A stretch of 64,000 nucleotides of DNA, taken from Candidatus Methanomethylophilaceae archaeon. GTDB lineage: Archaea; Thermoplasmatota; Thermoplasmata; Methanomassiliicoccales; Methanomethylophilaceae. Every line of letters starts with the position of its first letter. The first letter of the stretch is position 1. This document shows positions 6,290-34,116 of this stretch, piece after piece. The stretch is from contig JAFXUX010000004.1 of the NCBI GenBank assembly GCA_017524805.1, forward strand, positions 1-64,000, given 5' to 3'. The translations under genes and the position numbers were made by a program. The notes below the pieces were generated by a model. That model saw only the letters and a program-made list of their open reading frames with translations, had not been told where the DNA came from and did not search any database.

Positions 6290-7774
6290 TCAGCGGAGAA
6301 GCAGCGTCTGAGCCGCAGTCTCACAGAAGTCGAAGATGAGCTGGGGGTAGACACCGAGGACGATGACCGCGATTATGCAGATCAGGATGCCGACGGTGAA
6401 TGCGGCAGGTACCTTGACCCTGTCGGAGCTGTCTCCCTTCTCCACGTACATGGCCTTGACGACCCTTGCGTAGTAGTACAGGGAGATGGCGGAGTTCAGG
6501 ATGGCGATGAATGCCAGCCAGATCCACTGGGACTCGAGTCCTGCTGAAGTTCCCATCGTGGACGAGAACAGGAAGAACTTCGAGGTGAATCCTGCGAGAG
6601 GCGGGATTCCTGCCAGCGAGAACAGGAACAGCATCATAGCCGCGGCCATGAGGGGAGCCCTCTTGGAGAGTCCTCTGTAGTCGGAGATCTTCTCGCCGAT
6701 TCCGGCGCAGATCAGCGCGCCGACGACGAGGAATGCTCCTCCCTTCATGAACACGTGGGTGAACATGTGGAACAGGCCTGCGCTGAGGGCGTACTCGGAC
6801 ATGACTGCCATCACGATCAGGATGTAACCTGCCTGGGCGATGGAAGAGTATGCGAGCATCCTCTTGATGTTGTTCTGGGCGATGGCCACGATGTTTCCTA
6901 CGGTCATGGTGATGGCCGCGATTATCGCGAAGAAGTACTGGACCTCAGGCCCGGCGATCTCCGCGCACGCGGTTCCGGCCACGAACATGATCAGGAAGAT
7001 CTGGAAGAAGACGCTCAGACCCATCTTCTTGGATCCCGTTGCCAGGAACAGGGAGACAGGGGTGGCGGCCCCTTCGTACACGTCGGGAGCCCACATGTGG
7101 AACGGCACGGCTGCGATCTTGAATCCGTATCCTGCGACCATCGAGATGAGAGCCACAGCGAATGCTAGGCTGATCCCGCCGATCTCGGTGGAGCTGGCGA
7201 TCGCGGCGATGTTGGTCGTTCCGGTGAGCCCATAGAGCATGGAGATACCGTAAAGGGTCAGAGCAGTGGACATCCCACCGATGATGACGTACTTCACGGC
7301 GGCTTCGGCCGCTCTGGAGTCGTTCCTCTTCATGGACACTGCCGCGTATGAGGAGATGCTGGTGAGCTCGACTCCGACGAAGATCATCATCAGATCGGAG
7401 GACTCCGCGACGAACATCATACCCATCGTGGCGGCCATCAGCAGGGCGTAGTACGCACCGGTGTTGAACCTGGTGGTCTCGGTGCTGGCGTTGGAGACCA
7501 GCACCGCCAGGAACAGTACGATCTGGAACAGCAGGATCATCAGGCCAGAGTACGCGTTGTAACTGACCATTCCGAGGGTCTGCCCGACGTAACCGTCCGT
7601 CAGCATGAAGAGGTTCAGGAACAGCGAAATGACGACCATCACGAGGGAGAAGGCCCAGGTTACGGTGCGCTTCTTCCCGAGAAGGTTGATTCCGGGCACC
7701 AGAAGCACCGCGATCATCAGGATGATCATAGGCGCGACCGCTGTGAAATCTCCGAATATACCAGTGAAATCCAT
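6290..7774 (-). CDS. fpoN: Fpo-like complex subunit N (NuoN-type proton channel)
   Basis: Antiporter-like membrane subunit of the F420H2-dehydrogenase-like (Fpo) complex, a proton pump related to complex I. The 494-residue protein has about 14 hydrophobic segments and conserved NuoN features such as KRMLAYSSIAQAGY near residue 300 and FHMWAPDVYEGAATP near residue 225. The ATG overlaps the fpoM stop (TGATG). It is the last gene of the operon and is followed by the terminator. No fpoO or fpoF follows, unlike the Methanosarcina operon. Confidence 0.93.
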   Translation of the reverse strand: MDFTGIFGDFTAVAPMIILMIAVLLVPGINLLGKKRTVTWAFSLVMVVISLFLNLFMLTDGYVGQTLGMVSYNAYSGLMILLFQIVLFLAVLVSNASTETTRFNTGAYYALLMAATMGMMFVAESSDLMMIFVGVELTSISSYAAVSMKRNDSRAAEAAVKYVIIGGMSTALTLYGISMLYGLTGTTNIAAIASSTEIGGISLAFAVALISMVAGYGFKIAAVPFHMWAPDVYEGAATPVSLFLATGSKKMGLSVFFQIFLIMFVAGTACAEIAGPEVQYFFAIIAAITMTVGNIVAIAQNNIKRMLAYSSIAQAGYILIVMAVMSEYALSAGLFHMFTHVFMKGGAFLVVGALICAGIGEKISDYRGLSKRAPLMAAAMMLFLFSLAGIPPLAGFTSKFFLFSSTMGTSAGLESQWIWLAFIAILNSAISLYYYARVVKAMYVEKGDSSDRVKVPAAFTVGILICIIAVIVLGVYPQLIFDFCETAAQTLLLR

Positions 7775-9303
7775 CAGATCATCCCTCCGAAGGTAGCGAG
7801 GTTCTCAGCAAGAGGCTGCGTGAAGGGCTCGATGAACTGAAGAGCTCCATCGGGCCACATACCGAAGATCGCGACCAGAGCGCAGAGCACTCCCATGGCG
7901 ATGAATTCGGTTCTGTTGACGTCGTGGACATGGCTGAGATCGATCTTGGTGGTCTCAGGCCCGAACAGGGTCCTCTGCATGGCCCACAGGTAGTAACCCG
8001 CGGTGAGCATGAGAGACAGCATGCAGAACAGGAGGAGCCAGAGCATGTCGTTCGCGACGATGAACTCGTAGAACGCGAAGATGACGGGGAACTCTCCCCA
8101 GAATCCGACCAGACCGGGAAGCCCGAGGGACGCCATGAATGAGAACATCATGAAAGTCGCGAACTTGGGCATCCTGCCGGCGATTCCTCCGAGGAGGGGT
8201 ATCTCTCTGGTTCCGATCTTGTGTCCGGCCATTCCGCACACCATGAACAGGATTCCGGTGATGAGACCGTGGGCGAACATCTGGAACACCGCGAAGGTGA
8301 TTCCCGCGTCGCTCAGGCATCCGATGCCGAGCATGACCATTCCCATGTGGCTGATGGACGAGAATGCGACCATCTTCTTGAGGTCCTTCTGCGCGATGCA
8401 AGCGTATGCCCCATACACTATGGAGACCAGACCGATCGCTATGATGACCCACTGCCAGTAATTCGCTCCCAGCGGGAACGCCTCGAGGCAGACGCGGATG
8501 ATACCGTAGGAACCCATCTTCAGCATGACTCCGGCCAGGAGGACGGAACCGCCGGTAGGCGCCTCGGTGTGCGCGTCGGGCAGCCATGTGTGGAACGGAA
8601 CGGCAGGCATCTTGACCGCGAACCCGAAGAACAGGAGCGCGAACACGAGAGCCTGGAACCCTTCGTTGGTGTAGGGCATCAGCGAGTTGATTGCGTCGAA
8701 GGAGAAGTCGATAGCTCCTCCGGCCATCTCCGCGGCCTTGAATCCCATCGCGAATATTCCGATGAGCATGACCAGCGATGCCACGTGGGTGTAGATGAAG
8801 AACTTGATCGCTGCGTAGTGCCTGCGGGGTCCTCCGTACCAGGAGATCATGAAGTACATGGGTATGAGGGTAATCTCCCACATGACGTAGAACAGGAAGT
8901 AGTCCGACGCCGTGTAGACTCCCATGAGCCCGACTTCCATCGCCAGGAGCAGGGTGTGGAAGTAATTGGGCCTGTCGCCCTCGACTTCCTCCTCCTCCGA
9001 GGAGAAGATGACCACGAGCAGCACCAGCAGAGCGGTGAGGAAGACCATCAGTATGCTGAGGCCGTCTATCGCCAGCGAGAAGCTGATCGAGATGAAGTTG
9101 GTCGAAATCCATGTGTAACTCTCGGCGAGAGAGCCGAAATCGTTGCTGAGGGTCATCAGGTAGACCGCGAGGATGAGATCCACGGCCGAGAATGCGCCCG
9201 CAATGAACTTGGCGTATCTCTGTCTAGATCCGCCCATGATAAGGGTCAGAATGGCCCCGATCAGCGGGATGACGATGAGCAGAGTGAGTATAGGGAAATC
9301 CAT
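7774..9303 (-). CDS. fpoM: Fpo-like complex subunit M (NuoM-type proton channel)
   Basis: Second antiporter-like subunit of the membrane arm, with about 14 membrane segments in 509 residues. Typical motifs are KMPAVPFHTWLPDAHTEAP near residue 233 with the conserved lysine, and KKMVAFSSISHMG near residue 315. An acidic residue in MEVGLMGV matches the proton-path glutamate of this family. GGAGG precedes the ATG inside the fpoL end. Confidence 0.93.
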   Translation of the reverse strand: MDFPILTLLIVIPLIGAILTLIMGGSRQRYAKFIAGAFSAVDLILAVYLMTLSNDFGSLAESYTWISTNFISISFSLAIDGLSILMVFLTALLVLLVVIFSSEEEEVEGDRPNYFHTLLLAMEVGLMGVYTASDYFLFYVMWEITLIPMYFMISWYGGPRRHYAAIKFFIYTHVASLVMLIGIFAMGFKAAEMAGGAIDFSFDAINSLMPYTNEGFQALVFALLFFGFAVKMPAVPFHTWLPDAHTEAPTGGSVLLAGVMLKMGSYGIIRVCLEAFPLGANYWQWVIIAIGLVSIVYGAYACIAQKDLKKMVAFSSISHMGMVMLGIGCLSDAGITFAVFQMFAHGLITGILFMVCGMAGHKIGTREIPLLGGIAGRMPKFATFMMFSFMASLGLPGLVGFWGEFPVIFAFYEFIVANDMLWLLLFCMLSLMLTAGYYLWAMQRTLFGPETTKIDLSHVHDVNRTEFIAMGVLCALVAIFGMWPDGALQFIEPFTQPLAENLATFGGMI

Positions 9304-24456: not shown

Positions 24457-25242
24457 TCGGCGCACCAAGACCTCGGGCGAGAAGCCCAGATCCAGAATGC
24501 CCTCGAGAACGGCCCTTACGTCGAGCGCGTTCTTCCGCTCGGTCTCCGTATCCATCAGGCCGCCTTCCCTGCGCTCGCACATGTGCCAGGAATGGTCGGC
24601 CAGCATCATGTAGCCGCCGGCGCTCTCGGCCATGCGGACATAATCCTCCGGCGGGCGTTTGCCCTCGTGCATCGGCCACAGATACGCCGCGATCACCTTC
24701 CCGGAGGCATCGCACGATTTCGGGACAGGATACTCGGCTATCCCGCCCTCCTTGATGTACGGTGAGCACGCCCCGTAAGCGTATTCGGACGAATCCGCAG
24801 AGATTCCGAGACTTTTCAGAACGGGCAGGACGCATTCAGGCATGGACATATAAGGCGCCCTGAAGCAAGATGGGCGGGATATGCGGTCCGACACGGCCTG
24901 GAAGCCTTTCTCCAAGATGCTTTCCACTTCCGCGTCGGATATGCTCAGCCCGACGCTGCTCCCGGTCAGATCCTCATGGTCGTACCCATGGAATCCGACG
25001 CAATGCCCGGACAGGCAGGAACAGTCTGTAGTCTCGGCGGTGCGGCCCTCGACGAAGAACGTGGCCTTCATGCCGATGCCGTCGAGGATGTCCAGAATAG
25101 ATCTAAGACCTCTCTCGGAAGAGGAAAAGCGGGGCGCCTGGCCGGATCCCCTGTCAATTGACCCGGCTTCCAGGCGCCCTGGTACCGGGAGATTGGCGTC
25201 CCGGTCCAGGTCTATCGTGAAGAACAGCTTCTTCCCGCTCAT
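24457..25242 (-). CDS. polysaccharide deacetylase family (NodB-like), stop missing
   Basis: Carbohydrate-esterase-4-like protein of about 261 residues: FFTIDLDRDAN at the start (metal-binding aspartate), GYDHEDL near residue 85 (metal-binding histidines) and RPSCFRAPYMSMP near residue 125. No signal peptide is seen, so a cytoplasmic substrate is possible. The ATG overlaps the AMP phosphorylase stop (ATGA), making it the last gene of the AMP-salvage operon. The frame lacks a stop at the convergent end with pncB (CGA at 24457-24459) and continues antisense to 23236; that extension is spurious. A TGA there would end the protein at ...SPEVLVR. Confidence 0.75.
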
Positions 25243-26750
25243 CTCGCAGTCAGAGGCGATACCCTCTTGATGAGCATCCCCTCGATGTCCATGGGCTGGT
25301 ATTTGATCGCCGTCTCCTTCGCGCGCTTGAGCTTGGCCTCGTTGTCGGCGTATATCGTGAGGAGAACCTCGCCTTCCTCCACCCTCTGGCCCTTCTTCTT
25401 GGAGAAGATTATGCCGGCGCCTTTGTCCGACGGGGAGCCGGCTGCCTTGGCGATGGCCACGACATCCTTGTTGCTGATCGAATGCACATATCCCGATTTG
25501 GGCGAGCGGAGCTCATAGCTGAACTTGCCCGGCTTGAGATCGTCGGATTTCAGCTCTGGGTTGCCTCCCTGGGCCACCACGATCTCCATGAATTTGCGGT
25601 ATGCCTCGCCCGAAGCGAGAATCTCCTTCGCCTTCGCGGAGCCGTTGGGAATCCCGGCGACTTCGAGGATGATTCCGGCGCAATCGCAGGCTTTCTCAAT
25701 CACCGCGCAGGGATGGGTGTTCCCTTCCAGGATGCTTATGCATTCCCTGGCCTCCAGGTTCGGCCCGACCGCGTATCCGACAGGCTGGTCTGCGTACGTT
25801 ATGGCGCATTCCACATGGATTCCGATCCTTTCGCCCAGCTCCATCAGGTCCTTCGCATACTGCTTGGCCACCTCCAAAGTCGGCACCTTGGTCCCGGCTC
25901 CGGTGGGTATGTCGACCACCAGATGCGTGGCGCCCATGGCGAGCTTCTTGCTCATGATCGAGGCGAGCATCTGCGCCCTGGGGTTGATCCCGAGCGGGTG
26001 CTCCACCTTTATCACCATATCATCGACAGGGGCGAGGTTCATGGATCCGCCCCAGGAGAAGACCCCTCCGATTTCCTGTGTTATCTCCTTCAGGGATTCG
26101 GCGTCTATCTCCACGTCGCAGAACGTCTCCACGAAATCGGATGTGCCGCAGGCGCTGCTTATGGCGCGGGACGAGGTCTTGGGTATCATTATGCCGGCGG
26201 CAGCCACGATGGAGACGACGATTGGCGTGATCTTGTTGCCTGGAACCCCTCCGAGGCTGTGGAAATCGAACACGGGGGTGCTGTCGAACTTTATCATGTC
26301 GCCGGTCTCCGCCATAGCCACGGTGAAATCGGCGATCTCTCCGATGTCCATGCCGTTGATGTACAGGGAAGTCAGCCACGCCGAGATTTCGATCTTGGAA
26401 AGCCTGTTCTCCAGTATGTCTTCCACTATGGCTCTGATTTCCTCTCTGGTGAGCGCCTCCCCGTCCATCTTCTTCCTTATGGAACGGACGGAATCCGGCT
26501 TGGCCGCGTAGGTGACATTGATCACATCCCCCTCTTTGAGGCCGCATTTGGAGAGGAGCGAATTGGACATCGCCACGACGCCCCTATCTATCAGCGTATC
26601 TGTATGGGATACCAGCACTATCGTCGGCCTGGGGCCGGGAATGTTCACGCGGTCCCCTTCCTGCACGCCGATCTCGGCGCAATCGGCTTCATGAATCAGA
26701 ACGATCTGCTCGGACGAGTCCACATCGTATCCTTTTATGGTCAGCTTCAT
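25239..26750 (-). CDS. deoA: AMP phosphorylase
   Basis: Phosphorolysis of AMP (and CMP/UMP) to ribose 1,5-bisphosphate and base, first step of the archaeal AMP/NMP shunt. The 503-residue protein has an N-terminal extension of about 85 residues, typical of archaeal AMP phosphorylase rather than thymidine phosphorylase, then the glycosyltransferase-family core with SLGGVPGNKITPI near residue 166 and KTSSRAISSACGTSDF near residue 193. ATG 26750 overlaps the RuBisCO stop and has GGGGATCG upstream. Its neighbours are the two other enzymes of the same shunt. Confidence 0.93.
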   Translation of the reverse strand: MKLTIKGYDVDSSEQIVLIHEADCAEIGVQEGDRVNIPGPRPTIVLVSHTDTLIDRGVVAMSNSLLSKCGLKEGDVINVTYAAKPDSVRSIRKKMDGEALTREEIRAIVEDILENRLSKIEISAWLTSLYINGMDIGEIADFTVAMAETGDMIKFDSTPVFDFHSLGGVPGNKITPIVVSIVAAAGIMIPKTSSRAISSACGTSDFVETFCDVEIDAESLKEITQEIGGVFSWGGSMNLAPVDDMVIKVEHPLGINPRAQMLASIMSKKLAMGATHLVVDIPTGAGTKVPTLEVAKQYAKDLMELGERIGIHVECAITYADQPVGYAVGPNLEARECISILEGNTHPCAVIEKACDCAGIILEVAGIPNGSAKAKEILASGEAYRKFMEIVVAQGGNPELKSDDLKPGKFSYELRSPKSGYVHSISNKDVVAIAKAAGSPSDKGAGIIFSKKKGQRVEEGEVLLTIYADNEAKLKRAKETAIKYQPMDIEGMLIKRVSPLTAR

Positions 26751-27982
26751 TTCGATCCCCACTTCGCAAGCGCTTTGGCGAGTTCCTCATGGCTCCTGGC
26801 ATACTCCTCGGCGGATATTCCGAGGAAAGCGGCGTCCACCGCCTGGCTCATGGCTCTGGCGCCTCCGATGACGCCGTCGGGGTGCCCTGCGACGCCTCCT
26901 CCCGCCTGTATCTGGACGTTCATCCCGGCGCGGTCGGTTATGTCGGAGACTATTCCAGGGTGGACGCCTCCGGAGCAGACGGGCATGACGGCCTTGTATG
27001 GCACATCATCCCCCAGACAGGCCGCGAGATTGCCGTCGTCATGGGCTCCCGCGGACATCTTCCCAGCCCCGAGGGTGCCTATGTGCAGCGCGTCGCCACC
27101 GCACATGCGAACCAGTTTGGTTATCGGCAGCATGGCAATCCCATGGAAGGGATCTTTGGTGAAAGCCCCATGCATCGTCCTGTGCACATGGATAGGCACC
27201 TTGATGGACGGATCCTCGGCCAATGCCTGCACGGCGCCGAACCCGCAGGTGATCACGTCGACCATTATCTGCTTGGCGCCCCATTCCTGGACCTGCTCAG
27301 CCAATTCGACTATTTTGTCGCCGCGGGTGCTGACGTTTATCGCGTGGAGCATAAGATGGCCCTCTTCTTTGAGGGTGTCCAAAGCCTCGGCGACCGCCAC
27401 GGTCCTCTCGTCGATGGGGCAGAAAGGCTGGTCGACCAGGGTTTCATCGTCCTTGGAGTTGGTGAGACCTCCGGAACCCGCCTCGTAGACGTATTCGGCG
27501 GTCTTCTCCGGCGAAAGCCCGATCTTCGGTTTGACGATGGTCCCGACCAAGGGCTTCTCCGGGCGGCCGAGGATCTCCCTGAGCCCATCGGCGCCGAATT
27601 TCGGGCCTTTGAACTGGGACGCGATGCTCTTCGGGAAGGAGACGTCCTCCAGCCTGACCCCTTTGAGGGCTCCCAGGCCGAACAGATTCCCGGCGATGAC
27701 GCTCAGAATCTGCGGAACAGAGCCGACTTCGATGCTGAAATCTTCGGCAGGATATTCGACGGTGATCATATCGCCCTCGATCCTGGTCACCCTGGCGCCG
27801 AGGGAATCGAATATGCCCCTGTCCAGCGTGGATATCCCGGTCCAAGTGCCGGTGGACTGCTCGGCCGCGATGGCTTCGGCGGCCTTCTCCATGGTCAGAT
27901 CTGTCGTCACGCGGTATTTGCATACCACATATTCGCTGGGATCCTCAGGCTCCCCGAGATGAAGATAAGAATAGCTTTCCAT
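26747..27982 (-). CDS. rbcL: ribulose-bisphosphate carboxylase, form III
   Basis: Carboxylates ribulose 1,5-bisphosphate from the AMP shunt to two 3-phosphoglycerates. The 411-residue protein has GTIVKPKIGL near residue 150 (active-site lysines), GGLTNSKDDE near residue 180 (carbamylated lysine then DDE), HVHRTMHGAF near residue 270 and CSGGVHPG near residue 350. The residues before KDDE differ from the GGxDFxKDDE usual in many forms. Position between AMP phosphorylase and ribose-bisphosphate isomerase marks form III. ATG 27982 has GGAG eight bases before it; GTG 27991 is the alternative. Confidence 0.94.
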   Translation of the reverse strand: MESYSYLHLGEPEDPSEYVVCKYRVTTDLTMEKAAEAIAAEQSTGTWTGISTLDRGIFDSLGARVTRIEGDMITVEYPAEDFSIEVGSVPQILSVIAGNLFGLGALKGVRLEDVSFPKSIASQFKGPKFGADGLREILGRPEKPLVGTIVKPKIGLSPEKTAEYVYEAGSGGLTNSKDDETLVDQPFCPIDERTVAVAEALDTLKEEGHLMLHAINVSTRGDKIVELAEQVQEWGAKQIMVDVITCGFGAVQALAEDPSIKVPIHVHRTMHGAFTKDPFHGIAMLPITKLVRMCGGDALHIGTLGAGKMSAGAHDDGNLAACLGDDVPYKAVMPVCSGGVHPGIVSDITDRAGMNVQIQAGGGVAGHPDGVIGGARAMSQAVDAAFLGISAEEYARSHEELAKALAKWGSK

Positions 27983-27987
27983 TTGCG

Positions 27988-28917
27988 TCACTCCTTTGAG
28001 AAAACCGATTCGCCGAGCTGCCTTACCATGACGTCATAGACCGCGCCGGGAGAGATCATCCCCACCTCGCTGATTATGGCGTCGATATACTTTCCAGGCG
28101 TGCTGTCGAACACGGGATTGAACACTTTTACCTGATCCGGGACTTCCCCCGGCTTCACGACCTCGGAGATATCCCTCTCCTCGATCACCACCATGTCCCC
28201 GAATATGGTCATGGGCGAGAATTTGTAGGTCTCGGCGCAGACATAGAAAGGAACCCTCCTCTCCTCGGCGGCGAGAGCCAGCTGCGAAGTCCCGATCTTG
28301 TTGATCAGAACTCCGTCGGATGTGATCGTGTCGGCTCCGACGAAGACCTTGTCGATCCTCTTCATCACGCTGCGGACGGCGCTGTCTATCACGAGCGTGA
28401 CATCTATGCCGGAATCGGCCAAGTCCGTGACGGTGAGGATGCCCTGCCTCCACGGGCGCGATTCGGTCGCGTACACCTTTATGTCCTTGCCTTGGCGATG
28501 GGCCTCTTTGATTGCCCCCAAAGCCGCGCTGCTGTTGCAATGCGTCAGGATCGTGTCTCCATCGCGTATCCTTTTGGCGCCGATGGAGGCGATCGTCTGG
28601 ACGGCTTTGGACGACGATTCGACGAACCTCTTCGAATTGGAGGACACCAAAGCGCGAGCCTCCTCGATGGATGCGACCTCGTTCACCCCTTTCACAGCCG
28701 ATTGGACCCCGTTCCATAGGGATACCGCCGTGGGCCTGGATGAGATGACCTTGTCTGCGGCCGCTTTCAGATCGGCAAGGAAAACCTCCAAACTCTCTCC
28801 GCGATAGGAATCCGCGAACTCCCCCATCGCCGCCGCGCCCGCGCGAGCTATCTTTCCCGCGCCGCGGATGGTCATGTCGGCGATGCGCCGAGACGTGTCC
28901 TCGATGATGTCTGCCAC
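27988..28917 (-). CDS. ribose 1,5-bisphosphate isomerase
   Basis: eIF2B-alpha-like isomerase that converts ribose 1,5-bisphosphate to ribulose 1,5-bisphosphate, the middle step of the AMP shunt. Catalytic residues of the family are visible: the cysteine in LTHCNSSAAL near residue 127 and the aspartate in FVGADTITSDG near residue 195. 309 residues. The reading frame starts with GTG at 28917, and a TATA element about 27 bases upstream supports a leaderless start there; the next methionine codon would remove 14 residues. First gene of the shunt operon. Confidence 0.92.
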   Translation of the reverse strand: MADIIEDTSRRIADMTIRGAGKIARAGAAAMGEFADSYRGESLEVFLADLKAAADKVISSRPTAVSLWNGVQSAVKGVNEVASIEEARALVSSNSKRFVESSSKAVQTIASIGAKRIRDGDTILTHCNSSAALGAIKEAHRQGKDIKVYATESRPWRQGILTVTDLADSGIDVTLVIDSAVRSVMKRIDKVFVGADTITSDGVLINKIGTSQLALAAEERRVPFYVCAETYKFSPMTIFGDMVVIEERDISEVVKPGEVPDQVKVFNPVFDSTPGKYIDAIISEVGMISPGAVYDVMVRQLGESVFSKE

Positions 28918-29032: not shown

Positions 29033-29653
29033 TCACATGTTCATGCCTTCCTTCACATCTTTGTTGAAGAGGAGGCAGACCATGAAGATGCAGATGATGA
29101 GGTTGGCGATGGTGATGACGAGGTTGGCCAGGTAGGTGAGACTGAAGCTGCCGAAGACGGCAATGATCTGTCCGATGAGGCCAATAAAGTTGAATATCGC
29201 GCCGAGGGCGAACAGAATGAGGAGGATGATCCAGATGACTCTGTCAAGGTTGTCCTTCTTTCCGTCGTTGATCCTAGTGGAGATACCGATGATGATCAGA
29301 CCGATGATCACAGCGATGGCGAGCGAAACCAGAGTGGTTCCGATCTTGCCGCCTGCATCATCGTAGGTGTTCCAGATGGAGAACACGGCGTTGATAATAA
29401 CTCCAAGTCCCGCAAGCTTGACATACTGTGCGAGGATGTCGAGTTTGTTCGTAATCTGAGAGTTCCTGATCTTCCACCCGAAGGCGAAGTACAGGATCGC
29501 AACGATGATCGGCCCAATGGCTGCGACAGCCGTAGGCCCATCGATGCCGCCGGACACAGCACCAACGAGAGCGACGATACCCAGTATGAACTGGATAGCA
29601 CCGATCACGATGAGTGCCGTGCCGAGAGTTTTGTTGTCGTCAAAGAATGACAT
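29033..29653 (-). CDS. multi-pass membrane protein of unknown function
   Basis: 206 residues with about six hydrophobic helices, separated by short charged loops (WKIRNSQITNKLD, RINDGKKDNLD). A short polar start (MSFFDDNKTLG) precedes the first helix, and there is no signal peptide or catalytic motif. The overall look is similar to the DUF996-type predicted membrane proteins of archaea, but I cannot confirm it. Standing alone with its own TATA box, it is probably monocistronic. Confidence 0.7.
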   Translation of the reverse strand: MSFFDDNKTLGTALIVIGAIQFILGIVALVGAVSGGIDGPTAVAAIGPIIVAILYFAFGWKIRNSQITNKLDILAQYVKLAGLGVIINAVFSIWNTYDDAGGKIGTTLVSLAIAVIIGLIIIGISTRINDGKKDNLDRVIWIILLILFALGAIFNFIGLIGQIIAVFGSFSLTYLANLVITIANLIICIFMVCLLFNKDVKEGMNM

Positions 29654-29816: not shown

Positions 29817-30317
29817 TTATTGGATGCATATTCCCAATATCTCGTAAGCTATGCGACGAGCCTCATCCATCCCAAAAACAAGGTAAACCGCAGCCAAAAC
29901 AGCTTCGAAAGAATCTGCGCGCATGCTCTCTTCCACTATGGCATCGCCATGTTTGGTCCTGTGGCCTCCGCCGACCCTTATGACGCCATCGATGCCCAAT
30001 CCTTTGGACAGAACCTTCTCCGAGATGCTGTGATTGGAGACGATGCTCTGCTTGAAATCCGTCATAGCGCCCTCATTGAGATCGGAATCCCTGTAAACCG
30101 CCTCGCATGCGATGAATTCCAGAACCGCATCGCCGAGGAATTCCAAACGCTCATACGATTCGGCGACCTCAGAAACATCCGCGGCCTCGTTGGAATAGCT
30201 GTCATGCGTGAGAGCGGCGCAAAACAGATCCACGCTGCCCCTACTGAGTCCCCTGTAGCAGAATGGGGGTTTGGCGAGGAATTCGCGGACTCTCATCTCG
30301 AAATCCGATTCTGGCAT
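29817..30317 (-). CDS. RNase III catalytic-domain protein without dsRNA-binding domain
   Basis: 166-residue protein matching the RNase III endonuclease domain: ALTHDSYSNE (residues 35-44), the signature YERLEFLGDAVLEF (55-68) with E59 and D63, and RADSFEAVLAAVYLVFG (133-149) with D135 and E138. The acidic residues needed for metal binding are all present, so it should cleave double-stranded RNA. The C-terminal dsRNA-binding domain is absent, as in bacterial Mini-III. RNase III is uncommon in archaea as far as I know. The gene ends in TAA and has no obvious partner in an operon. Confidence 0.85.
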   Translation of the reverse strand: MPESDFEMRVREFLAKPPFCYRGLSRGSVDLFCAALTHDSYSNEAADVSEVAESYERLEFLGDAVLEFIACEAVYRDSDLNEGAMTDFKQSIVSNHSISEKVLSKGLGIDGVIRVGGGHRTKHGDAIVEESMRADSFEAVLAAVYLVFGMDEARRIAYEILGICIQ

Positions 30318-30447: not shown

Positions 30448-31956
30448 ATGGCAGAGAAAAAGCGCTTGAGGATGAGAGGCGTCAAACACACCTCCAAAAG
30501 GTTGGAAGACGATCTTCTGGACCGCTCCAGAACTCTGGCGGAGAACCCCGGCATAATCAGGCCCGCCTGCGCAGGGAACTGCAGGAAATGCGCTTTCGAC
30601 AAGACATTCAAAAGCATATCCGGCCTGAGGAACATCATCGACAACCCCGATGCTCTGATCAAAGAGGCCTCCAAATTCGGCGGGGACGACATAGTTCGCG
30701 CCTATGCGGGCACCGTGTCCCTTTCGGCGGCCGGAAGCATCCCGCTCTTGGCGACAGCCAAACTCCCGGGCGGGGACACAGTATCTTACGCCGTCAGAGG
30801 GACGGTGAAAGCGGACAAACTCATAGGGTGCCAATATTACACTGACCCTAAGCTCAGAATGTTCCTGTACAACGATTTCATCAAGAAAAACAAGCTCCAT
30901 CTCTATTCCTTCGGAGACGACGTCGTATGCTCCGACGCGCCCAGCATGCCCGAAGACTATCTCAGCGACACATTCTGGGAAACGCCTTACGAATTCCCCA
31001 AAGACGGGATTTCGTGCGGGCATGACGCGTCCGCAGTGCTGGAGATAGAGATAAAATCCCTCGGGGAGACCATTCGCATCTGCGAAGGCTGCGCAAAGAA
31101 CGTCTCGACCCTCACTTACTTGGTATCTAGAATGTCCGCGGCAGATCCGCTGGATGACTTCGCCGTCCGCATAAAGCACAAGTATCATAAGCCCGGGGAA
31201 AAGGACTACGAACCGATCGAAGGCGACGCCCTCAAGAAATACATGCTCGGCCTGACGACCGATTCCGCTCTTATAGAATCTATAAAAAGATTAAAAGTAG
31301 GGGATCTGAAAGGGAGCGGCACGGCCACCTACGTCATCGGGACGGAGAACTACGGCGATTCCCTTGAGAAATTCGTATCCCAGCTTACTGGTGACGAGTG
31401 CGAGATCGAAGCTCTGAAGAAGTTCCTGACGGACAACCCCAGAGGACTCGTCCTCAAAAACCCGAAGGCATCGGAAGCCCTCAACGCCATATGGGAAAGC
31501 GATTGGAAGGCAATCGTTACGGCGTATACCGATGCCAAAACTGCGGAATTCCTTGGGGATGCCTCCAAAAACCAGCCGCTCCCGACTCTCTTGGCGGCCC
31601 GCAGCAGATTCCAGACGGCCGACGTGAGCGCGGCGCTGCCGGAATTCAAGAGGCCGGGGCCGTTCACCTCCGCCGCAGACAAACTCGCGAAGGCATACAA
31701 GGCCGGCGGGCAGAAGATGCTTGAAGAGGCGGCCAAGACCAAAGGCATGAAGAACGGGAAGATACGCGCTGTAGAGGCTTCGTTCCTGATAGCGTGCGGC
31801 GTGACCGACCTGCCGTCCAAGCTCACCCCCTCGGAGAGAAGTCTGGCCGATTATCTGGCGCCGTTCGCCAGATCGCTGATGGATGCGGATGCAAGCAAAT
31901 ATGCGGACGCGATGAACACGTTCCTCATCGCATGCAGCTCCGGTGAGAAGGTCTGA
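30448..31956 (+). CDS. protein of unknown function with cysteine motifs
   Basis: 502-residue protein I do not recognise. The start is basic (MAEKKRLRMRGVKHTSKR). Cysteines occur as CAGNCRKC near residue 42 (C-x3-C-x2-C) and later as SCGHD and CEGCAKN near residues 187 and 211, so it may bind zinc or an Fe-S cluster. There is no membrane segment. The C-terminal half is a helix-rich, Ala/Lys/Asp-rich region that could be repeats of an alpha-solenoid. C-x3-C-x2-C resembles the radical SAM signature, but the surrounding sequence is unlike that fold. The 3' end overlaps the convergent methyltransferase gene by 32 bases. Confidence 0.75.
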   Translation: MAEKKRLRMRGVKHTSKRLEDDLLDRSRTLAENPGIIRPACAGNCRKCAFDKTFKSISGLRNIIDNPDALIKEASKFGGDDIVRAYAGTVSLSAAGSIPLLATAKLPGGDTVSYAVRGTVKADKLIGCQYYTDPKLRMFLYNDFIKKNKLHLYSFGDDVVCSDAPSMPEDYLSDTFWETPYEFPKDGISCGHDASAVLEIEIKSLGETIRICEGCAKNVSTLTYLVSRMSAADPLDDFAVRIKHKYHKPGEKDYEPIEGDALKKYMLGLTTDSALIESIKRLKVGDLKGSGTATYVIGTENYGDSLEKFVSQLTGDECEIEALKKFLTDNPRGLVLKNPKASEALNAIWESDWKAIVTAYTDAKTAEFLGDASKNQPLPTLLAARSRFQTADVSAALPEFKRPGPFTSAADKLAKAYKAGGQKMLEEAAKTKGMKNGKIRAVEASFLIACGVTDLPSKLTPSERSLADYLAPFARSLMDADASKYADAMNTFLIACSSGEKV

Positions 31957-32971
31957 CCCTAACATCGGCGACATAATGGGATACGGACGGGGCGAAAGAT
32001 TTCACCTCGCGGATCGACAGGATTTCGTACCCGTCCTCCCCGCATTTCCCATCGAAAATCTGCTTTATGCGGCCTTCATATTCATGCACGTAGAACGTGT
32101 CGTGATAATGCAGGATTCCGCCTGGCTTTATCATCCCCAAAGCGGCATCCAAGAATTCTGACGTCGTCTGGACGTATCCCATCAATATGCGGTCGGCGAA
32201 CGCTTTCCCGGGAAGGTCCCTGTTGTCGCCCAAAATCGGGATTACGACACCAGACAGCCCGTTGTCCCTTACGTTGCGGACCAAAAATCCATACGATTCC
32301 GGGTTCTTTTCGCATGCGAACACGCGTCTGGCACCTGAGAATTTAGCCAGAGGGAGCGTGAAATAACCTATTCCCGCGAACATGTCCACCACCGTCTCGC
32401 CGAGGCAGTCCAGATTCCTCATGCGCATGCGCTCGTTGGTGTTTCCGGAGGCGAACATGACCTTGGTCACGTCGAAACCATAGCGGATCCCGTTCTCCAG
32501 GCGGACGGATTCGGTGTCCGTGCCGTATAAAATCTCCATGCTCGGCCGCCTGAACTCGCCGGATACCCCGCTCACATCGGCGCAGACCGTCTTCGCGCCG
32601 AGGATTTCGGCATATGCCTGGCCGATGATCTTCCCATAAGGCCTGCACTCGGGGCGCATGCGGACTATGACTATGTCCCCGACATATTCCCACTTCTCTG
32701 GCAGCATGCCTTCCAGTTCTGGATACGAGGACAGCCTCTCGCGTATGCGCTCCTGAGGGGGCCTCCTGTCCAAAGTGTGGGCCTCGCCCTCGACCAGCTC
32801 CATCGAAGCCGCCGGCTCATCGCCGAGACGCTCCGGAAGTATCGGCACATAGCGGTAATCTTCGTCTTTGGAAATCTTGGCGTGGATGTCGACGAAACCC
32901 TCGTCCATCAGGCGGCGGATGATGGGGCCGGCCTCCTCCGACCTTATCTTGGCGAAAACCACTCTCTTCAT
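31925..32971 (-). CDS. taw2: Taw2/Trm5-type tRNA transferase
   Basis: Class I SAM-fold enzyme acting on position 37 of tRNA-Phe. The 348-residue protein has VVDMFAGIGYFTLPLAK near residue 195 (SAM motif I) and FACEKNPESY after it. Where Trm5 methyltransferases have an NLP motif, this protein has ILMGYVQTT, as in Taw2 (transfer of the aminocarboxypropyl group in wyosine synthesis), so Taw2 is preferred; Trm5b is the alternative. ATG 32971 overlaps the upstream reductase stop (ATGA) with AAGGTG before it. Last gene of the tfs-pcna operon. Confidence 0.85.
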   Translation of the reverse strand: MKRVVFAKIRSEEAGPIIRRLMDEGFVDIHAKISKDEDYRYVPILPERLGDEPAASMELVEGEAHTLDRRPPQERIRERLSSYPELEGMLPEKWEYVGDIVIVRMRPECRPYGKIIGQAYAEILGAKTVCADVSGVSGEFRRPSMEILYGTDTESVRLENGIRYGFDVTKVMFASGNTNERMRMRNLDCLGETVVDMFAGIGYFTLPLAKFSGARRVFACEKNPESYGFLVRNVRDNGLSGVVIPILGDNRDLPGKAFADRILMGYVQTTSEFLDAALGMIKPGGILHYHDTFYVHEYEGRIKQIFDGKCGEDGYEILSIREVKSFAPSVSHYVADVRVRPSHRSCMR

Positions 32972-34116
32972 ATCAGGCACCTTGCCGCCAACGAGATCAG
33001 CCCGGGTATCGCGGAGGGTTTGCGGAGCATCCCATGGATGACATCGGCAGGATGGTCCAGATCTATGGCGTCGAGGGCCGAGCGCACATCATCCCTTGAG
33101 CAGTACTCCCCAGCAAGGTCGAGCTTTGGATCGTCCAAGCGCGCATACTTTTTGCGGAGGAAATAGGCCCGTTTCAGCTCCTTCCCGAAATCGCCCATCC
33201 ACATCCTCTCGTAACGGGAAAGGTTCTTCCCAGACAGATCATCGGATTCCAGCGCAGACGCAAGCACCTCCGACAGCATGGGCGCGGCTCTGAACGCCGG
33301 ATAAAGACCGCCGCCGGATACGGGTTTCACATGGCAGGCGGCGTCCCCTATGAGAAGGCACCTTTCCCCGTAGGTAGTGCGGCGCCCTCCGAGAGGGATC
33401 TTCCCGCAGTACATGGATCTGACTTTGTCGCCCGGATAATGCTCGGAAAGAAGCCTCTTCAGATATGGCCAGGGAGGGCCCGCGGCCCATGATGCGCAAA
33501 GCCCGACGCGGACGAAATCCCCGCACGGAATCTCCCACGAGAAAAATCCAGGTGCGACCTGGTTCCCGATGCGTATGCGGAAGGTGTCGACTAGATCGGA
33601 ATCAGAGAAAACGTCGGCTTGGATCCCGCGGATGTACTCTTTCGGGCCGTTGTCCCCCAAAGACATGGCGACCGCCGAAGAATGCCCGTCGGCCCCGACC
33701 AAGGACCTGCATCCGGATTCGCCGGAAGCTGAGCGGACTTCGATGCCTCCGGACGACACGGAATGCGACAGATAGCGGTTGCCGTAGGAGAAATCGGCCC
33801 CTGCGTCCATAGCGGCGGCGGCCATCTTGGCGTCCAGATCGGCGCGGTCTATCACTATCGCCTTCGCGCTCTTGGAACGCACCTCGACGCTTCTGCCGCC
33901 GGGAAAAACAACTTCGGCGCCGTACAGAGTGTTGAAAACGTCCGGATCAGACCCGGACATGCGGGCGACCTCCTCGGTGATCAGGCCGGCGCATTGGGTC
34001 GGGACCCCGGAGGACCCGTGATCCTCCAGGACCCTGACTGAAAAGCCTCTCGATGCAAGCAGGCGGGCGGATGCGCTTCCGGCCGGACCGGCGCCCACTA
34101 TGACGGCATCGAGCAT
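32968..34116 (-). CDS. second geranylgeranyl reductase-like flavoprotein
   Basis: 382-residue FAD-dependent reductase: VIVGAGPAGSASARLLA at the start, PTQCAGLITEE near residue 38 (family cysteine position), GADGHSSAV near residue 142 and CLLIGDAACHVKPVSGGGLYPA near residue 265. It is a paralogue of the reductase at 4102-5196, with a different neighbourhood. It could reduce lipid chains of another substrate or polyprenyl carriers. GAGG lies seven bases before the ATG, which follows the transaldolase stop by seven bases. Confidence 0.85.
   Translation of the reverse strand: MLDAVIVGAGPAGSASARLLASRGFSVRVLEDHGSSGVPTQCAGLITEEVARMSGSDPDVFNTLYGAEVVFPGGRSVEVRSKSAKAIVIDRADLDAKMAAAAMDAGADFSYGNRYLSHSVSSGGIEVRSASGESGCRSLVGADGHSSAVAMSLGDNGPKEYIRGIQADVFSDSDLVDTFRIRIGNQVAPGFFSWEIPCGDFVRVGLCASWAAGPPWPYLKRLLSEHYPGDKVRSMYCGKIPLGGRRTTYGERCLLIGDAACHVKPVSGGGLYPAFRAAPMLSEVLASALESDDLSGKNLSRYERMWMGDFGKELKRAYFLRKKYARLDDPKLDLAGEYCSRDDVRSALDAIDLDHPADVIHGMLRKPSAIPGLISLAARCLI

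Follow-up and report, generated by a model that had tools for sequence, protein, structure and literature searches.

A conserved archaeal RNase III without a dsRNA-binding domain, and type II-A CRISPR-Cas9 loci in relatives of its host

The 64,000-nucleotide stretch of archaeal DNA analysed here (the window), from a member of the Methanomethylophilaceae, contains an open reading frame that resembles RNase III and raises the question of whether an archaeon carries a working enzyme of this kind, how it came by it and which RNA it cuts. The family is methanogenic, as indicated by mcrA in eight of nine family genomes tested. According to the literature, RNase III occurs in very few mesophilic archaea and reached them via horizontal transfer (PMC5303251), which matches the rarity that the preliminary description of this locus had emphasized.

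The protein and its genomic site

The reading frame matched two Pfam models well above their cut-offs (PF14622, E = 5.3e-24, 85.3 bits against 35; PF00636, E = 2e-17, 64.3 bits against 27) and carries the ERLEFLGDA signature. One RNase III domain is the sole domain reported: the Pfam search found no dsRNA-binding domain (dsRBD) in the protein, and in its AlphaFold model the chain stops five residues past the last helix (residues 150–161). The model of full-length RNase III, TIGR02191, gave 102.9 bits, below its cut-off of 166.25, as is expected because the second domain is absent. The residues E59, D63, D135 and E138, together with E56, were read in the window protein and are conserved in the family, and the catalytic quartet is intact in nearly all single-domain family members that were read (exceptions: G051, G052 and G075). 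The preliminary description had thus been correct in listing these four catalytic residues, to which E56 is added, and in reporting no dsRBD, a statement upheld both by Pfam and by the end of the reading frame in the model.

Identity of the window protein to 23 relatives ranges from 41 to 63%. An alignment of 24 rows (A2) served as input for the AlphaFold model, which reached a mean pLDDT of 94.7 and found its best solved-structure match in the RNase III of T. maritima (Z 19.5, rmsd 2.3 over 155 residues). Codon comparisons within the genus yielded dN of 0.13–0.39, dS near or above 1 and dN/dS of approximately 0.07–0.2 (11 pairs, two of them without finite dS, with dS near saturation). Based on the domain match, the residues, the fold model and the codon comparisons, the reading frame is a genuine gene on which purifying selection acts, and its identity as a catalytically complete, dsRBD-less archaeal RNase III is confirmed.

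The neighbourhood of the gene is common to seven genera of the family (Table 1). At 24 of the 28 loci tested, the window included, RNase III lies upstream of ribose-1,5-bisphosphate isomerase on the same strand; 15–71 bp separate its stop from the isomerase start in 17 of those 24 loci, compared with 899 bp in the window. At the other four (L069, L076, L084, L085), the nearest 4 kb contain no isomerase. The isomerase, the RuBisCO homologue and AMP phosphorylase are the genes of archaeal NMP degradation. Co-transcription of RNase III and isomerase in the window itself is putative, and the intervening gene for a hydrophobic protein, present likewise in L071 and L072, counts against it. On the other side, 11 of the 12 family genomes that were tested carry the divergently transcribed flank gene, genomes without RNase III included. 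Empty versions of the site, with the isomerase and this 502-aa gene approximately 90–140 bp apart, occur in G033, G039, G051, G060 and G067; in G041, where RNase III is missing at the site, the interval is approximately 390 bp. In G045, G049, G069, G075 and G031 the two genes lie farther apart or on separate contigs, or one of them is degraded or unmatched, and in the gene-bearing G035 RNase III sits between them.

Table 1 Features of the RNase III site in the window and tandem RNase III chains in two relatives
Feature	Position	Strand	Remarks
AMP phosphorylase	25239–26762	−	TIGR03327 above cut-off; same gene string as isomerase
RuBisCO large-subunit homologue	26747–27991	−	Best match type III, TIGR03326 E = 1.4e-112, below cut-off
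Ribose-1,5-bisphosphate isomerase	27988–28917	−	TIGR00511 above cut-off; downstream of RNase III
Hydrophobic protein, 206 aa, no known family	29033–29653	−	Between RNase III and isomerase
RNase III catalytic-domain protein	29817–30317	−	ATG start, 166 aa, no dsRBD; E59, D63, D135, E138 and E56
Protein of 502 aa, no known family	30448–31956	+	Divergently transcribed; conserved upstream flank of RNase III site
Taw2/Trm5-like tRNA wyosine-pathway enzyme	31925–32980	−	Conserved outer flank
Tandem RNase III chains (G034, G046)	L081:6905–7819; L082:6826–7743	−; +	Syntenic locus

RNase III is a staple of bacteria and the window's genome is an assembly of 47 contigs, so that a bacterial gene or a pseudogene could in principle have strayed into an archaeal bin. 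The probability of this is negligible, however, as the contig that carries RNase III also has archaeal PCNA, Taw2-like and NMP-degradation genes and the gene order is kept in many genomes. It is further contradicted by the single-contig genome G014, in which the 16S and 23S rRNA genes, mcrA, EndA, RNase III, cas9 and a CRISPR array all share one contig, ruling out a binning error in that genome.

Distribution, inheritance and degenerate forms

PF14622 matched 92 of 150 relatives. In the window's genus, RNase III is present in 29 of 31 genomes (the window's own counted), the two misses being only 61% and 66% complete. Across the family it was found in 70 of 102 genomes (33 of the 45 good ones), and a sample of the phylum yielded it in 65 of 292, many of these from one other family, f36. 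These frequencies do not support a view of the gene as a local oddity. The gene is nevertheless dispensable, since several near-complete family genomes are without it. The f36 proteins (L228–L238, L241–L245) are short, at approximately 150–170 aa, and form their own clade across many genera. In f2, a family of the same order, an alignment judged by eye showed that some RNases III continue at the C terminus with an extension resembling a dsRBD in size and type, and that others do not.

Phylogenetic analysis of 92 rows, including bacteria and other archaea, placed the window family's protein in one clade (100/92) and f36 in a separate clade (100/100) apart from f2. This tree comprised 37 bacterial rows, with 43 of 80 bacterial loci left out, and dropped 14 of 56 archaeal rows (eight divergent, two tandem and four near-duplicates) as well as 8 of the 16 f36 rows; a further tree took all 56 archaeal rows plus the window. 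A single clade of f1, f2/f3 and f36 rows was not rejected (AU p 0.335). The tree would thus fit one acquisition as well as several, and it singled out no donor. Within the family, a 16S tree (23 of 30 loci fetched) shows RNase III in the earliest branch, g14, and the genomes without the gene do not form one group. This pattern would be better explained by one early gain followed by several losses than by repeated gains at one site. Overall, RNase III appears as a chromosomal family gene that is mostly inherited vertically. Origin from a mobile element gained no support from three sequence collections, none of which gave a close match: the phage collection returned 11 records (best identity 36.8% among the matches listed), viral contigs 10 loci (at most 33%) and plasmids 43 records (best 37% among the matches listed).

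The gene has been lost from its fixed site in some family members and not in others, and this patchiness could also point to a defence or counter-parasite factor, which would degrade viral or antisense dsRNA rather than serve housekeeping. In B. subtilis, the bacterial RNase III is reported to silence foreign toxin genes (PMC3531473). We nonetheless regard a defence function as quite improbable, given that the neighbourhood is not defensive, that no phage, viral or plasmid relative is close (best 37% among the matches listed) and that the window shows no excess of antisense reading frames. On this last point, the preliminary description had drawn attention to many long antisense overlaps that could yield double-stranded RNA. 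The remark is true as a count, at 88 overlaps, but this does not exceed chance, since 30 codon-shuffled versions of the window gave 83.2 (sd 5.5, maximum 92), and the overlaps are accordingly not supported as a source of dsRNA. An Rfam search over the window returned nothing.

Two relatives, G034 and G046, encode at the family's syntenic RNase III site a single chain in which the RNase III domain occurs twice. The first domain retains the four catalytic residues; the second has A, D, E and K where E, D, D and E are expected, so that two of the four catalytic residues are lost. Apart from these, Dicer and Drosha are the only proteins for which passages of PMC8708148 mention such a two-domain chain. 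A single-sequence model of the G034 tandem protein was unusable (pLDDT 36). Separately, family f6 and other groups (L093–L096, L085, L098) contain RNase III-like proteins whose signature has degenerated, for example to LANLGD, with a catalytic E replaced by A; these are perhaps non-catalytic. Genus g12 gave weak PF14622 matches, and the one protein read, that of G051, is without some catalytic residues.

rRNA and CRISPR RNA as candidate substrates

In these genomes the 16S and 23S rRNA genes are unlinked (more than 30 kb apart in G014, for example), and the flanks of each pair into long stems. In the 16S stem, two 3-nt bulges enclose a 4-bp helix (GGUG/CACU) in G014, G003 and G040, which have RNase III, and equally in G033 and G039, which do not; a looser version was found in G093 and G094 (without the gene) and in G090 (with it). 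A GACG/CGUU-type helix between bulges, complete or with three of four pairs, is present in the 23S stem of all ten genomes read, both with and without RNase III. These bulge-helix-bulge (BHB) type motifs were read by eye in eight 16S folds and ten 23S folds chosen as a mix of genomes with and without the gene. EndA (PF01974) was detected in 58 of 60 genomes and in all 42 good ones. Because BHB-type stems occur regardless of RNase III and EndA is there, primary excision of rRNA should not depend on RNase III, and would instead proceed by the canonical EndA cut at BHB motifs.

Both stems do contain long, near-perfect helices beside the BHB motif, such as the 16 bp GACGUUCGAUGCUACG / CGUAGCAUCGAACGUC of G014, G003 and G040, and such helices are good RNase III substrates on paper. 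It could therefore be argued that the enzyme matures rRNA in the manner of bacterial RNase III or Mini-III, by cutting these helices in the two processing stems. We consider this unlikely: stems and BHB motifs persist where RNase III is missing (16S in G033, G039, G093 and G094; 23S in G093, G094, G095 and G097), EndA is present and the protein has no affinity to Mini-III. A necessary role in rRNA processing is accordingly unlikely, although RNase III may trim rRNA. This also qualifies the earlier suggestion that the gene would be ordinary if it were broadly and vertically present in related archaea and had a known rRNA role: presence is indeed broad, mostly vertical and at one locus, but the enzyme is not known to act on rRNA, and a necessary role is opposed by the stems.

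CRISPR RNA, another target that had been envisaged for the enzyme, gains substance in relatives, which have type II-A systems with a predicted tracrRNA, but not in the window's own genome, where a profile search gave no Cas9 match. Bacterial Cas9 immunity of this type depends on RNase III. Cas9 exceeded the cut-off in 8 of 102 family genomes, and full-length cas9 loci were recovered from six of them (L136–L141, in G014, G020, G034, G040, G064 and G088). Profile matches at these type II-A loci comprised cas9 and cas1 in all six (cas1 of G014 being a fragment below the cut-off); csn2 was matched at five loci and cas2 at four. When read as ORFs, cas1 is split in G014 and csn2 in G088, and cas2 in G014 and G020 was recognised from its ORF, without a profile match. 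All four genes are uninterrupted in G020, G034, G040 and G064, every one of which has RNase III. Arrays accompany all six loci, with 16–63 copies of a 36-nt repeat at a period of approximately 66 bp.

Antisense to and upstream of cas9, all six loci share a conserved element with 31 invariant columns that contains TCAA(A/G)TAAGGC. The 5′ part of this element is an antirepeat able to pair with the repeat of its own array, and the two change together between loci: where repeats are GTGTTGTC, GTGTTGAC or ATATTGAC, antirepeats are GACAACAC, GTCAACAC or GTCAATAT, respectively. Motif search and alignment were decisive in locating the antirepeat; local alignment and duplex energy over whole loci were not, and whole-duplex energies of cognate pairs of repeat and antirepeat were not uniformly better than those of non-cognate pairs. 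We take the element to be the putative tracrRNA. Rfam over the cas9 loci detected tRNAs only and no family for this element. In G020, a second repeat-like element (L137:8231–8300, + strand) is strongly complementary to the repeat (E = −46.4) and distinct from the presumed tracrRNA at approximately 7697–7800. The single-contig genome G039, which has no RNase III, encodes a truncated Cas9 of 938 aa (L142:5586–8402, + strand), next to which no cas genes or array were found.

Processing of the tracrRNA:crRNA duplex might even be the reason why the family keeps RNase III. Five of the six type II-A genomes have the gene (the sixth, G088, gave no match at 86% completeness), among them all four with uninterrupted loci. 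Such a reason for existence is still very improbable, because Cas9 is confined to 8 of 102 genomes whereas RNase III occurs in 70 of 102, the window's genome among those without Cas9, and because the two are not associated (RNase III in 6 of 8 Cas9 genomes versus 64 of 94 others). Moreover, the comparison that suggests purifying selection is one in which most genomes have no Cas9 match.

Whether an enzyme of this form could perform dual-RNA processing is addressed by work on S. pyogenes: a truncated RNase III failed in this task and the dsRBD is stated to be required (PMC3936727). From that result, the dsRBD-less archaeal enzyme might be unable to process dual RNA. In the same paper, bacterial RNases III are found to be interchangeable, and the authors suggest that type II systems may use any dsRNA-cleaving activity (PMC3936727).

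Proposed function and comparison with known systems

We consider it rather probable that the gene encodes a dsRBD-less homodimeric endonuclease for dsRNA that acts in RNA turnover and can be drawn on to process tracrRNA:crRNA in genomes with Cas9; dimer, dsRNA activity, turnover role and dual-RNA processing are all predicted. The homodimer would most likely cut short, perfect RNA duplexes with metal ions presumably held by E59, D63, D135 and E138. Its everyday job would most likely be dsRNA cutting in RNA turnover. This is the weakest step of the proposal, suggested because RNase III heads a string of NMP-degradation genes on the same strand. In relatives with Cas9, the same RNase III is the obvious candidate for processing the duplex of tracrRNA and pre-crRNA. 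We further propose, tentatively, that the fixed dsRBD-less RNase III lets type II-A Cas9 and tracrRNA work in archaea and that in two relatives the locus has turned Dicer-like, with one domain active and one dead; this more specific reading seems to us quite possible but short of probable. If true, it would represent the first archaeal guide-RNA maturation dependent on RNase III, achieved without the dsRBD that the bacterial enzyme needs.

The CRISPR classification of November 2025 states that archaea with type II-D systems lack RNase III "like all other archaea" and deduces that their crRNA is processed by a different route (PMC12669027). A conserved, complete archaeal RNase III on one chromosome with a type II-A Cas9 and a putative tracrRNA contradicts the statement that archaea lack the enzyme, which is also made in reviews. 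Passages of that paper also mention class 2 systems in a few archaeal phyla and do not name II-A in this phylum (PMC12669027). A further bearing is on the origin of the RNase III domains of Dicer and Drosha, which have been argued to be bacterial because archaeal RNase III is so rare (PMC5303251). Maturation of Cas9 guide RNA by a dsRBD-less archaeal RNase III is now directly testable, as is the use of RNase III by archaea in processing rRNA or in RNA decay. Proteins of this kind surely bear RNase III-like annotations in genome databases, so the gene is not new in itself. What we could not find in print is that it is conserved, where it sits and that it occurs together with type II-A: titles and beginnings of abstracts in the open literature, a scope outside which most subscription papers fall, contained no description of these.

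Among known enzymes, the class I RNase III of bacteria (rnc; TIGR02191; T. maritima 1o0w) shares with the window protein the endonuclease domain, the ERLEFLGDA signature, the four catalytic acidic residues and the fold, and by analogy the window protein is predicted to be a homodimer that cuts dsRNA to leave 2-nt 3′ overhangs. The bacterial enzyme differs in its C-terminal dsRBD, whereas the window protein scores below the TIGR02191 cut-off and has an archaeal host. In Bacillota and cyanobacteria, Mini-III (MrnC) resembles the window protein in its RNase III domain without dsRBD and its comparable size. The preliminary description had proposed Mini-III as the reference for comparison, yet the family profile reveals no such affinity: in a search of A2 against PDB chains, Mini-ribonuclease 3 obtained only E = 0.29 (6tnn_H) and 0.3 (4oun_A), compared with 3.8e-28 for the T. 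maritima enzyme (1o0w_A), and identity with Mini-III was rejected on these grounds. Dicer and Drosha have the RNase III domain in common with the window protein, human Drosha being its top PDB sequence match, but carry two such domains per chain, whereas the window protein has one and no other domain reported. EndA, which is reported to take on in archaea RNA-cutting jobs done by RNase III in bacteria (PMC8708148), is unrelated to RNase III, recognises BHB motifs and is present alongside RNase III in these genomes. Finally, the S. pyogenes-type II-A dual-RNA system has its counterpart in the relatives with respect to cas9, cas1, cas2, csn2, the 36-nt repeats, the 66-bp period and the predicted tracrRNA; it differs in that these relatives are archaeal and their RNase III is without a dsRBD, while the window's genome has the enzyme and not the system.
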